A stretch of 50,085 nt of DNA from Candidatus Poribacteria bacterium (GTDB lineage: Bacteria > Poribacteria > WGA-4E > WGA-3G), in NCBI GenBank assembly GCA_012270795.1, contig JAAXHO010000191.1:1-50085 (forward strand), in the 5' to 3' direction. Numbering within the stretch: the stretch's first letter is position 1; the number at the start of each line of letters is the position of its first letter. The notes beneath the pieces are model-generated. The model saw only the letters and a program-made list of their open reading frames with translations, had not been told where the DNA came from and did no database searches. Position numbers and translations under genes: made by a program. Below, one piece after another: positions 8,340 through 43,452 of the stretch.

Positions 8340-9797
8340 TTAAGGTATAAATTTCCAAGTTGATCCTTCATGAGTGTCCTGGATTTCGATATTTAGTTGT
8401 TTCAGTCTATCACGGATTTTATCTGAAGTATCCCAATCTTTTTGGTTTCGTGCGTTTTGTCTAATTTCTAATAGGAGTTCAAGCAGTGGATTGAGGTATT
8501 CCGCGGTGTTGCCAGTATCATCCTCGTTTATCGTATAGATGCCAAGAACTTGACAGGTTTCGTATAGGGTTTTACGGGCTTTTGCTAAAGTGTTTGAGGA
8601 AACACCGTTGGAATTTGCTATTGACCTATTGACGTGGCTGACAAGAGAGAAAATTGACCCCATTGCTTGTGCTGTATTGAAATCGGTATTCATAGCATCA
8701 GTAAATTGCGCCTGCATGTTTTCTATTGCCGAAAGAAGTGAGATGTCAGCTTTAGAAACCTTTGACGTTTGCGAGGTTTTATCATCTGAGGTTTCGTTTG
8801 TATCTTCATCATATTTTTTCAGTGTTTCTAAGCAGTTGTTCAAACGTTTTAGTGCGGATTCAGATTTTTGCAGGCTTTCCAAACTGTAATCAAGTGGATG
8901 ACGGTATTGTGCAGAAATGAGAAAATGACGGATGACTTCTGCGGGGTATCTGTCCAATGCGTCTCGTAAGAAGATAAAGTTTCTCTCAGATTTACCCATC
9001 CGTCTACCGTCTATTTTCAGGAACGCGACGTGAACCCAGTAACGCGCAAAGGTTTTGCCTGTTGCCAATTCGCTCTGTGCGATTTCGTTTTCGTGATGTG
9101 GGAACAGTAGGTCTTCACCCCCCGCATGGATATCAATTGTTTCACCTAGGTGTTTCATCGCCATAGACGAACATTCGATATGCCATCCGGGTCTTCCAGG
9201 TCCCCATGGGCTCTCCCAATATGGTTCTCCCGGTTTTGCTGCCTTCCACATGTCAAAATCGCGCGGGTCTTCCTTACGTTTATCCACTTCAACGCGGGCA
9301 CCTGCTAACAAATCCTCCGGTTTACGTTTGGACAGTTTGCCGTATTCATTGAATGTATTGACGCGATAATAGACACTACCATCAACGACATAAGCTGCAC
9401 CTTTATCAATAAGTGTTTGGATCAGGTCAATCATCTCTGGAATGTGTTCAGTTGCTTTCGGGTGCACATCTGCGGCTTGAATTCCGAGTCTTTGTGTATC
9501 CTCAAAGTATGCTTCACTGTTTGTATGTGCGAGTTGACTGGAGCTGATTCCGAGTGTTTGCGCTCGCGCAATTATTTTATCATCAATATCAGTTACATTT
9601 TGAACTAATTTGACAGTATATCCGCTGTATTCAAGATACCTTCTTATAATATCCGTAACGAGTGCTGTTCGAGCATTGCCGATGTGTATATAATCATAGA
9701 CGGTGGGACCGCAACTGTACATTGACACTTGTCCCTCCGTTAGGGGTGTAAAATCCTCAAGTTGTCTGCTAAGGGAATTATATATTTTCAATCCCAT
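8340..9797 (-). CDS. cysS: Cysteine--tRNA ligase
   Basis: CysRS charges tRNA-Cys with cysteine in the cytoplasm. The 485-residue length is normal. The class I signatures are present: CGPTVYDYIHIGNARTAL (HIGH motif, about 29-46, including the zinc-ligand Cys), GWHIECSSMAMKHLG and LFPHHENEIAQSE (further zinc ligands). The KMSKS-equivalent is MGKSERN, with Gly-Lys-Ser retained. A C-terminal DALR helical domain follows. The ATG at 9797 follows GAAGGAAAA. It lies 59 bases after ispF and belongs to the radA-yacL-ispD-ispF-cysS neighbourhood familiar from Bacillus. Confidence 0.96.
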   Translation of the reverse strand: MGLKIYNSLSRQLEDFTPLTEGQVSMYSCGPTVYDYIHIGNARTALVTDIIRRYLEYSGYTVKLVQNVTDIDDKIIARAQTLGISSSQLAHTNSEAYFEDTQRLGIQAADVHPKATEHIPEMIDLIQTLIDKGAAYVVDGSVYYRVNTFNEYGKLSKRKPEDLLAGARVEVDKRKEDPRDFDMWKAAKPGEPYWESPWGPGRPGWHIECSSMAMKHLGETIDIHAGGEDLLFPHHENEIAQSELATGKTFARYWVHVAFLKIDGRRMGKSERNFIFLRDALDRYPAEVIRHFLISAQYRHPLDYSLESLQKSESALKRLNNCLETLKKYDEDTNETSDDKTSQTSKVSKADISLLSAIENMQAQFTDAMNTDFNTAQAMGSIFSLVSHVNRSIANSNGVSSNTLAKARKTLYETCQVLGIYTINEDDTGNTAEYLNPLLELLLEIRQNARNQKDWDTSDKIRDRLKQLNIEIQDTHEGSTWKFIP

Positions 9798-9856
9798 TCA
9801 ATTTTCCTTCATATATTGATGAACCACAAAATTGCACAACAACAAAGCACAAAGAT

Positions 9857-10336
9857 TTATGATTGAGTTTTGGAAAGGCATACAACCGCTTGTGCTACGA
9901 TTGCTTTTCCTTCACCTACAATTCCTAATCCTTCTGCGGTAGTTGCTTTCACACTTACCTGTGTTTCTGTTATATTTAATGTTCTTGCAAGAACACGCCG
10001 CATTTGCGAGATATAGGGTGCTAATTTCGGTTTTTGTGCAATTACTGTGCTGTCAACGTTTTCAATTACATATTTTTGTTCTCTAATCTTCGCTGTGATA
10101 GTGCGAAGAAAAACTTGACTGTCCATTCCAGCGTAACTTTCGTCTGTATCTGGAAAATGTGTTCCGATGTCTCCTAACGCTGCTGCGCCTAAAATAGCAT
10201 CACAGATGGCATGTGTCAACACATCCGCATCTGAATGTCCGAACAATCCTAAATGATAAGGAATTTCTACACCGCCCAAAATTAGTTTTCTATTCTCAAC
10301 AAGTTGATGAACGTCGTACCCGATTCCTATCCGCAT
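9857..10336 (-). CDS. ispF: 2-C-methyl-D-erythritol 2,4-cyclodiphosphate synthase
   Basis: IspF converts CDP-methylerythritol 2-phosphate to the cyclodiphosphate with release of CMP, in the MEP isoprenoid pathway. The 159-residue protein is full length: MRIGIGYDVHQL with the metal-binding Asp-Val-His at 8-10, GHSDADVLTHAICDAILGAAALGD at about 33-56, FPDTD, and the C-terminal KATTAEGLGIVGEGKAI. The partner enzyme ispD is at 12447-13181. The two are normally adjacent or fused, but here they are separated by a WD40 gene and a repeat. Confidence 0.95.
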   Translation of the reverse strand: MRIGIGYDVHQLVENRKLILGGVEIPYHLGLFGHSDADVLTHAICDAILGAAALGDIGTHFPDTDESYAGMDSQVFLRTITAKIREQKYVIENVDSTVIAQKPKLAPYISQMRRVLARTLNITETQVSVKATTAEGLGIVGEGKAIVAQAVVCLSKTQS

Positions 10337-10353
10337 CTTATGTCCGATTTATA

Positions 10354-10739
10354 GTAGATTCTATAATTAACTTTACATTTTCCAATTGTAGGAAGGAACT
10401 CCGATTCCCGACTATCATCGCTTTTTGTTGCGATTCGGAGATCACTCCTACAGAAAGTATAAACTTAATTTTGTAATTCACTATATTATACCTTATATTC
10501 CATAATTTATGGTGAATTATTGAAATAATTATACACATCTTTTGTAGGATCGACGCGGGGAATGCCATTGGGCGAATGCGCTTGGTAGAATACGCCAAAT
10601 CAAGCAATCAACAGTATGAATGCCATTTAGGCATTCCCCGTGTGGTGTTCTACATGATTCGCCATGATTCATACCGTTGATTTCTTGATTTCCCGGTCGT
10701 TCCTACAACTCAGAATGTAGAATTAATTGTATAATCTAC
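10354..10739. mobile_element. Composite MITE-like element between ispF and the WD40 gene
   Basis: The ends are imperfect 26-base inverted repeats: GTAGATT then CTATAATTAAC at 10354 onward, and its partner read inward from 10739 as GTAGATT then ATACAATTAAT. Inside are nested palindromes of the same family. One is GTAGGAAGGAACTCCGATTC pairing with GATTCGGAGATCACTCCTAC (10389-10453). The other is a GTAGGATCGAC...GTCGTTCCTAC unit (10543-10706) that carries two copies of the GGGGAATGCC/GGCATTC module. There is no ORF and no transposase. It accounts for most of the 440 bases between the two genes. Confidence 0.6.
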
Positions 10740-10776
10740 CATAAATGCAGGCTGTTATGGTTTACAGAGTAGAGCC

Positions 10777-12025
10777 CTATTCCCCAAATGCTTGTGCCAC
10801 AATCACCAAGTCCTGAATGTTCACAACACCATCACCGTTAATATCCGGTTCCGCTTCCCCAAAAGCGTTTGCAACAACAACTAAATCTTGAATATTCACA
10901 ACACCATCACCGTTGACATCTTCAGGGCGTTGTGTAGACGAAATTTTCCACAATAGCACCGTGCCATCTCCACTGCCACTTGCGATTTTTTCTCCATCCG
11001 GACTGAATGCGATACTCTTGATAATAGTTGAATGCCCATAGATTGTCCGGAGCTGTTGTCCCGTGTCCACATCCCAAAATCTGATGGTGCCGTCGTAACT
11101 GTGGGTCACGATTTTTTTCCATCCGGACTAAACGCAACGCTATAGACAGAACGTCTATGCCCTATGAAGGTGCGGATGTGTTCTCCTGTGTCTGTGTCCC
11201 ACAAGCGGATAGTTCTATCTTCACCGCCGCTTGCGATTTTTTTTCCATCTGGGCTGAACGCAACGCTATAGACACCTCTTGTATGCCCTGTGATCGTGTG
11301 GAGCATTTTTATTTTTCTCGTGTCCACATCCCAAATTTTGATGGTGCCGAAGTAACCACCCCTTGCGATTTTTTTCCCATCTGGGCTGAATGTTACACAA
11401 CTGACCAAATCGTGATCCCTGTACAATGTTGAATAGGATTGTGCACCCGTGTCCACATCCCACAGAATGAACCAGCTGCTGTCACTACCAAATCTCATGC
11501 GACTTACGATTGTTTTTCCATCCGGGCTGAATTCGAGGTCTTGAATAGAACCCAGAGGTTGAGGCTCGTCAAAAGTGCGGATGAGGTGTCCTGTGTCCAC
11601 ATCCCACAGACGAATAGTGTATGGGACTTTATCACTAGGATGCGATTGAACGGTACTTGCGATTTTTTTTCGTCTGGACTTAACGCGACAATAGTGTCCC
11701 CCACAAGGTCTATAATCTCCAGAATGTGTGTGGCAGTGCGGAGGTGTTGCCTTGTGTCTGCATCCCACAGGATGAGGCCCCTTTGTCCTGTGAGTAGATC
11801 AAGGGCTTCATCTGTTTCCGCGTCGTAGAGCCAAATACCGACAGCACTTGACACTGCCAACCGCGTGCCATCTGGTGAATATTCAAGGTGCCCTACTTTA
11901 CCTTTACCGAGCCGCAGGGTCGCACCTTTCGGTAGATGCCATAACGAATCTTGAGCAAAGAGGGTTGGCGTAAATGCAAGCGTCGTTAACAGAATGGATA
12001 AAATCACAAAAAATTTGGGCTTCAT
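10777..12025 (-). pseudogene. Secreted WD40-repeat protein with C-terminal dockerin, two -1 frameshifts
   Basis: Three overlapping frames join into one protein of about 416 residues. It has a signal peptide (ending TPTLFAQ), a series of WD40 blades (LWDVDTG and SVAFSPDGKKIASG repeats), and a type I dockerin at the C-terminus with two DVNGDGVVNIQDLV-type calcium loops. The frame breaks fall at about 11670 and 11110. Both lie in the poly-A run encoding the SPDGKK/SPDEKK-I turn: eight A where nine are needed, and seven where eight are needed. An intact copy of the same turn near 11240 has the full count. The ATG follows AAGGAG. Dockerins dock to cohesins; with WD40 this suggests an extracellular scaffold role if the frame is restored. 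Confidence 0.8.
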
Positions 12026-41274: not shown

Positions 41275-41412
41275 ATGGAATTAATTACACACTTTCACAG
41301 GTAGGAGCGACCTCCAAATCAACGGTATGAATGCCTTTTGGCATTCCCCAGGTCGCGACCAGAGGTCGCTCCTACAGAAGATGTGTGTAATTTTTCAATA
41401 ATTCACCATAAT
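41275..41412. mobile_element. MITE-like element overlapping the methyltransferase 3' end
   Basis: The centre is a GTAGGAGCGACC...GGTCGCTCCTAC unit (41301-41375) that encloses a GGCATTC/GGAATGCC module. On both sides lie related ATGGN(T/A)GAATTATT...TTACACAC(A) sequences: TGGAATTAATTACACAC on the left and, inverted, TGGTGAATTATTGAAAAATT on the right. Copies of the flanks are found at 10505-10545. The element contains the stop codon of the methyltransferase gene (41372-41374). Confidence 0.6.
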
Positions 41413-43452
41413 TTACTTCTAATAATTTATCTGATACGCGAACTTCGTTATATATATGGTTCTTATCTTGTTCATCTAAAGAGAATAAATTCATTACTTC
41501 CTCATCAAGTTTCTTATATAGACTTTTGCGTTCATCCAAAACAAGATCCTTTTTTAGCAGTTCGTTGACCAATTTCTCAAACCTAATATGTGCATTTTTG
41601 TCAATATTGGGCAATGGTAATTGCTCTATGTGACTCTTCAGTATTTTTATAGCACCAAACTTTTTTTCAAAGATAAACTGATACATCGTTGAATTAAACA
41701 GTGCCAAGATTGTTTTTATTGGGTAATTCGATATTGTTGGTATCAAAACGTTTGCACTGTTAAGAGTGAGAGTCTGTCTATCGTCATAGGCAAAGAATAT
41801 CATCTTGAAAACAGAAATCAATTTGACAAAGTGAGAGTCTGTCTATCGTCATAGGCAAAGACTAATTGCTTAGAAATAAATTTATACAACAATTTTTCTT
41901 TTGCACGATATTTTTCTTCTGGTGCAACTTGTTGAAACCCATTTGGTAGAAACCTAATAAATTTACTCGGTTTTTTAGTGCAAAACCTTTTGATGTCCTT
42001 ACCGGTTAGAATTGGTTCAAAGCCTTCACCGTTGTTTTCTTGTAAATGTTTTTTGTTGTCACCAGTAACAATACCCAGTGCCCATATTGCATTGTTCTTT
42101 AACGTATTATGTTTGACAGAAAAAACTTTATCTGTTAACTCATAATCTCTTGCGTTTGTAAAAACATCAAAGATAAAATCTTGGTTTGATACTAATCGTG
42201 TTTGTTTAGTATGAAATAATGAATCGTCTTTTTCTGCAATGAAAGCATTTTCATCTGCTATTTTATTCACCAAATCCAATTGAATGGCATTCGTAAAAAC
42301 GCCGTCAAATGGACGTTTGAAGTGTTTAATTCTTTTGATTGTAGTTTGTTTTAGAATTTTTTCTCTAATATCTTTATGTATTTTTGTGTTTAGGATTGCC
42401 TCGGGTAAGATAAAGGAAAGAATGCCGCCCTCCTTCAAGTATCCAATACCTGCCTCAAGAAAATATGCAAATGCTTCGTTTGATTTGACATTCGGGTATT
42501 TCTTTTTTAGTAATAACTCTTCATCTTTAGAGAAATGGGAACCCCAGGGAGGATTTGTTATCACTAAATCAAATTGAGGAATGTCTTTACCGTCATCTGA
42601 TAATGTATTTTTATGATATATATTTGGATTAAATCTATGTTGTGGAAACTTTAGCAAGAGATTTATCTTTGCCAGTCTAACAGCATTTTCGTTAATATCA
42701 AAACCCCAAAGATTAGATGGATTATCTATTTTTTCAGAAGCTATAAGCAAAAATTGACCAGTCCCACAACAAGGGTCAAGAACAAGATCACTGCTTTTTA
42801 TGTTTTGCGTAACTACCTCATCAACGATATGTTTTGGAGTATAATATGTGCCAGTCTTTGCTCTCTCACCCTCATAAAGTAGGGACTGATGCAGCAACCC
42901 TAAAAAATCGCAATTTAACGGGATACTAATATCAAAAACTTCATTGTAATAATGTGGAAGTTCCCTATCTTTTGTATTATCTAACCAAGTTTCTATTTCA
43001 GATTTTACTATTTTATTCGTAAAGTTGATGTCGTTAAGGGATAGAAATTGTGTTTCTCTAATTAAGCCAACCTGCCTTAGTAGATTTAAAGCAGTTACAA
43101 GCAGGACTGAATCTCTGTTGAGGTTATGTCTTTTAAAAAGATCGGTAATTGTTAAAATAGACTCACATACTTTAGGATTATCTGCATATTCCGTAGGAAT
43201 AATCTTGGAGATAGAGTTACTTTTATTTGCACGTTGATTGAGTTTTGTCAGAGATCCATTAGTAATTTTATTTCTTATCTCCTCTATATGGGATCTGAGA
43301 AATCTGTTATTTTGTTGAATGGCTGCAGGCTGAATGTGTCCAAGTTTTACCCAATTTCTAACGGTCGCAGTAGAAACTCCCAAGACTTCTGAGACTTCAT
43401 TATAAGTAAGGTAATCTTCATTGGGATAGTCAAGATATTCAGATAAATTCAA
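41372..43452 (-). pseudogene. N6-adenine DNA methyltransferase (gamma class) split by a 65-bp duplication
   Basis: The N-terminal part (starting at TTG 43452 after AAGGTGATAC) has a MerR/excisionase-like helix-turn-helix (LTYNEVSEVLGVSTATVRNW). A helical stretch follows, then the methyltransferase core: VLDPCCGTGQFLLIA (motif I), ITNPPWGSHFS (motif IV, NPPW), EAFAYFLEAGIGYL. It stops at 41818. The rest (41372-41821 frame) resembles a TaqI-like target-recognition tail: VLIPTISNYPIKTILALFNS, YQFIFEKKFGAIKILKSHIE. The break results from a 32-bp direct repeat with a 65-base period (41765-41861). Removing one period restores a 671-residue protein. The last 14 residues (VNYGELLKNYTHLL) come from a MITE-like element. 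No separate restriction enzyme is present. Confidence 0.8.
41765..41861. repeat. 32-bp direct repeat with a 65-base period in the methyltransferase gene
   Basis: The 32 bases at 41765-41796 are repeated exactly at 41830-41861 (both start AGTGAGAGTCTGTCTATCG and end TAGGCAAAGA), with 33 unrelated bases between. On the minus strand both copies translate in the same phase as FAYDDRQTLTL. The 65-base period is not a multiple of three, which is why the gene is frameshifted. Confidence 0.9.

Follow-up and report, generated by a model that had tools for sequence, protein, structure and literature searches.

The window analysed here is a 50,085-nt stretch from a Candidatus Poribacteria bacterium (GenBank assembly GCA_012270795.1, contig JAAXHO010000191.1, positions 1 to 50,085 of the forward strand). 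It contains a predicted N6-adenine DNA methyltransferase gene that is interrupted by 65 additional base pairs, in which a segment of the gene is repeated exactly around a short fragment with a perfect copy elsewhere in the same genome. We consider it probable that this scar, hereafter event 1, was left by a natural off-target spacer integration, i.e. the insertion outside an array of a spacer-sized DNA fragment by the Cas1-Cas2 complex of the clustered regularly interspaced short palindromic repeats (CRISPR) system.

The scar comprises two copies of a 32-bp direct repeat, R (Table 1), which match without mismatches where none would be expected in shuffled sequences; the window contains no further copy of R, even with 3 mismatches allowed. 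The 33 bp between the copies occur only once at the site and show just 39% and 30% identity to the flanks. An earlier note on this DNA had recognized both the exact repeat and the interruption of the methyltransferase gene, and these observations stand. It had also described a 65-bp duplication, possibly a transient tandem-duplication mutation, which has to be abandoned: only 32 bp are duplicated, and the middle, being foreign to the site, matches neither flank and is found elsewhere in the genome (on contig C168, see below). Orthologues lacking the 65 bp, which the note had proposed to look for, do exist. Two relatives, the sister species G013 and the genus member G009 (record OY282386.1), carry the methyltransferase gene in the same setting, flanked by an enolase-superfamily gene on one side and mnmA on the other. 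In both of them the site is empty: the 65 bp are absent and R is present once, exactly in G013 (88% amino acid identity) and with 8 mismatches in G009 (72% identity). Because both syntenic orthologues have a single R, the comparison of sequences identifies the 65 bp as an insertion.

Table 1. Coordinates of the interrupted methyltransferase gene, the insertion within it and the two further insertions in the same genome (G000).
Feature	Position	Strand	Description
R, copy 1	41765..41796	+	32-bp exact repeat; target duplication of 30-32 bp, equal to 41766-41795 given a 35-nt insert
S1, spacer-like insert	41796..41830	+	35 nt, 33 nt of which lie strictly between the R copies; exact copy of G000:C168:117766-117800
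R, copy 2	41830..41861	+	32-bp exact repeat; equal to 41831-41860 given a 35-nt insert
5' part of orphan N6-adenine DNA methyltransferase gene (predicted)	41821..43452	-	544 aa before the premature stop; open reading frame (ORF) 43452-41818 including the stop
Premature TGA stop	41818..41820	-	supplied by the insert, within the unique middle
3' part of methyltransferase gene	41372..41821	-	149-aa ORF; holds the rest of the TaqI_C domain
Event 2	L090:10058-10153 (G000:C208:10058)		inside hsdR ORF 8736-11783 (minus strand); repeat exactly 30 bp, insert 36 nt
Event 3 (candidate)	L214:9882-9979 (G000:C197, about 69882)		repeat exactly 30 bp, insert 38 nt

The origin of the insert S1 could be traced to contig C168, where it is matched in 35 of 35 positions by an intergenic promoter region; the donor stretch is flanked on one side by the end of a cation-ATPase-like gene and on the other by a gene whose promoter -35 box falls within it. 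As the donor match includes one base of each R copy, the simplest parse of the scar would be a 30-bp target duplication around a 35-nt insert, and the sequence shared between the junctions and the flanks of the donor does not exceed 1 nt. G004 and G013 have the same intergenic region in the corresponding position, with 3–4 differences. It is therefore native to C168, and the copying ran from there into the methyltransferase gene. The identity of the insert to the C168 allele of this very genome indicates that the copy is recent.

The dimensions of the scar are those of the native CRISPR arrays. The arrays of this genome, on contigs C208 (L090:1-3768) and C279 (L102:59-418), consist of 30-bp repeats and 35–38-nt spacers, and a cas6 gene adjoins the one on C208. 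Across arrays of the genus with the same 30-bp repeat type (205 spacers), spacer length peaks at 36 nt (72 spacers), with 26 (13%) of 35 nt and 32 of 38 nt. Relatives with this repeat encode Cas1 beside the array; in G016 the locus includes Cas4, Cas1b and Cas2 together with a type III-A effector. Among known processes, it is Cas1-Cas2 spacer integration that duplicates a target of repeat length on both sides of a foreign fragment of spacer length. In CRISPR-sense orientation, the sequence TTAGT/CTTTG of the event-1 site resembles the leader-repeat junction of the relatives (ATAGC/CTTTT), which places it in the top 0.43% of the background.

We propose that a 35-nt prespacer would have been captured from the cell's own chromosome at C168 by a Cas1-Cas2 adaptation complex, probably of the Cas1b/Cas4 type seen in relatives, and joined to both ends of a 30-bp stretch within the methyltransferase gene. 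Subsequent gap filling would then have duplicated this stretch, just as the CRISPR repeat is duplicated in normal adaptation. Off-target integration as such is a known event that is rarely documented in nature. It was observed in E. coli upon overexpression of Cas1-Cas2 (Nivala, Shipman & Church 2018, Nat Microbiol 3:310, as cited in PMC11788318 and PMC9456107), and in vitro with a type II-A Cas1-Cas2 at sites resembling the leader-repeat junction (PMC6895254).

We searched 1.62 Mb, or 31% of the genome, for exact direct repeats that enclose an unrelated middle, and outside the window recovered two clean cases with the CRISPR dimensions (Table 1). Event 2 adds 22 residues in frame to the restriction gene hsdR, and its site is empty in all 11 aligned relatives. 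Event 3, a candidate that turned up after the 30-bp expectation had already been set, lies where a helicase gene, a UvrD/TPR-like ORF of 1279 aa, has its 3' end. Target duplications of 30 (30–32), 30 and 30 bp in events 1 to 3 compare with a native repeat of 30 bp, and inserts of 35, 36 and 38 nt with native spacers of 35–38 nt, the middles being unrelated to the targets. Under a crude uniform null for repeat length and spacing, P is about 1e-5 for three hits within the predicted range of dimensions, a value that is indicative only, being post hoc for event 1, which itself set the expectation.

Several other pairs recovered by the scan were rejected as scars. The pair with a spacing of 69 on C168 arises from the DES..TGES motif that a P-type ATPase naturally contains; those with a spacing of 66 on C173 and C207, together with part of those on C172, reflect repeats of the leucine-rich type; two pairs, C172:46665 (spacing 66) and C168:99429 (spacing 75), are common to relatives and hence ancestral tandem repeats; and many intergenic pairs belong to REP/MITE-like families. 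A possible similar scar in a relative (L072:10512-10610; G017:C95), with a 30-bp repeat and a 39-nt REP-like middle, is uncertain, being intergenic and in a repeat-rich region; it lies about 700 bp from that relative's CRISPR array.

The 5' part of the broken gene encodes HTH_17 and N6_Mtase/Eco57I domains as well as the N-terminal half of the specificity domain TaqI_C, and is 72% identical to the intact G009 orthologue of 658 aa (a 662-codon frame). The insert both shifts the frame and brings in the stop codon, thereby splitting the target-recognition domain; we infer that methyltransferase activity is lost. The 149-aa ORF begins with a TTG that overlaps the TGA stop of the 544-aa ORF. The earlier note's statement that both copies of R are read in the same phase was borne out, as each ORF contains one copy of the encoded FAYDDRQTLTL; likewise, by arithmetic, removal of the 65 bp leaves a frame of 2016 nt, or 671 residues and a stop, and would in principle restore the gene. 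On its 3' side, at 41290-41385 of the window, lies a palindromic element (GTAGGAGCGACC...GGTCGCTCCTAC) that resembles REP-like sequences found between genes in relatives.

In G009 the intact methyltransferase gene is directly followed by a gene for a 242-aa protein with an IEVKAS stretch (L060:6456-7184), which is a candidate restriction endonuclease of an undescribed family; it yielded no Pfam or PDB sequence match. A homologue (56% identical) occurs in G041, and the family was found in these two genomes only, being absent from both the present genome and G013. As the partner is missing from both of these, and as the G013 methyltransferase gene has acquired its own, independent 2-bp frameshift, we regard the gene as a decaying orphan in this branch. 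It was without a restriction partner before the insertion, which was therefore probably tolerated and not favoured by selection as a switch.

Some observations weigh against an origin by spacer integration. In this 95%-complete assembly we detected arrays and cas6 but no Cas1 and no Csm1/Cas10. Given that Cas1 is present in 11 of 17 sampled members of the genus, that the visible arrays sit at the ends of contigs and lack the leader present in relatives, and that the assembly is an incomplete draft, the adaptation module may have escaped assembly or have been lost recently; put differently, arrays and cas6 without cas1, Csm1/Cas10 and a canonical leader reflect either a system in decay or a gap in the assembly. 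Unlike that of event 1, the sites of events 2 and 3 do not resemble the leader-repeat junction, and the empty-site evidence covers only events 1 and 2 of the three. No donor was found for the inserts of events 2 and 3: the former has no exact match in viral or genome contigs and the latter none in viral contigs. The repeat of event 1 may be 30, 31 or 32 bp long. Finally, no protospacer adjacent motif could be derived, since, among the matches listed, genus spacers compared with the sampled DNA gave only overlapping array copies rather than a useful protospacer.

That no Cas1 was found in the assembly also favours an origin that needs no CRISPR enzyme, namely break repair or template switching, in which a staggered break or stalled fork would give a tandem duplication of about 30 bp with some 35 bp of filler from elsewhere. 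In eukaryotes, small tandem duplications have been described at the termini of breaks (PMC8355091), and repeat pairs of other sizes do occur in the samples (e.g. spacings of 109 and 159 in G007). We nevertheless regard this as unlikely, because three events share a 30-bp duplication and a 35–38-nt insert, equal to the native CRISPR unit. Furthermore, event 1 has at most 1 nt of junction microhomology, and no gene for Ku was found in the genome, on which ground Ku-dependent non-homologous end joining was rejected.

The possibility raised by the earlier note that the 32-bp repeats reversibly switch an epigenetic regulator ON and OFF draws on the fact that deletion between exact repeats 65 bp apart, each in coding phase, would restore the frame. 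It is very improbable, as both orthologues have a single R instead of the pair, the restriction partner is gone here and in G013, and the latter has its own frameshift, all of which is indicative of decay; the middle, moreover, is a chance chromosomal fragment. Spontaneous deletion between the copies could still restore the gene, but nothing points to a maintained switch. An assembly or chimeric-read artefact might be suspected in a draft of 298 contigs. Reads would then have to be chimeric on either side of a 35-nt fragment, with the geometry of a CRISPR unit and at three loci, and the perfect native donor also makes an assembly error unlikely; we give it marginally less credence than the switch.

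Should spacer integration be correct, CRISPR adaptation would carry a measurable mutational cost, and its scars could be found in genomes simply by looking for a foreign insert of spacer length flanked by a duplication of repeat length, which would make the rate and site preference of misdirected adaptation testable across genomes. It would also correct the tempting interpretation of such a gene as phase-variable. Extrapolation from three scars in about 31% of the genome gives roughly ten per genome. A tentative possibility, which we regard as somewhat doubtful, is that adaptation acts in this lineage as a recurrent insertional mutagen of ordinary chromosomal genes; with two of the three scars in restriction-modification genes, the memory writer of one defence system may damage another. 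While off-target integration is well shown upon overexpression and in vitro, natural cases rarely combine an empty site with a mapped donor; the 2018 study by Nivala and colleagues reportedly includes putative natural examples from Yersinia pestis and from Sulfolobus islandicus.

In its domain order (N6_Mtase/Eco57I followed by TaqI_C), and in the candidate endonuclease adjacent to its G009 orthologue, the broken gene is similar to the methyltransferases of type II restriction-modification systems, from which it differs in lacking a partner in this genome and in being split. With phase-variable DNA methyltransferases, which rely on simple repeats or invertible specificity genes, it shares a reading frame disrupted through a repeat-associated change; here, however, there is neither a repeat tract nor an inversion, the repeat pair is not conserved, and the gene is a decaying orphan. 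The leader-repeat-like junction of event 1 recalls the in vitro products of type II-A integration (PMC6895254), but those were probably half-site products on a plasmid, whereas the present scars would be full-site insertions fixed in a chromosome, two of them without such a junction. The closest parallel is the genesis of 'neo-CRISPR' loci by off-target Cas1-Cas2 activity, in which a spacer-sized fragment is likewise placed outside an array and a repeat-sized target is duplicated. In contrast to that work, the events described here come from an assembly in which cas1 was not found; they are natural, occur in Poribacteria and lie inside protein-coding genes, with three scars in a third of one genome and a self donor mapped for one of the inserts.
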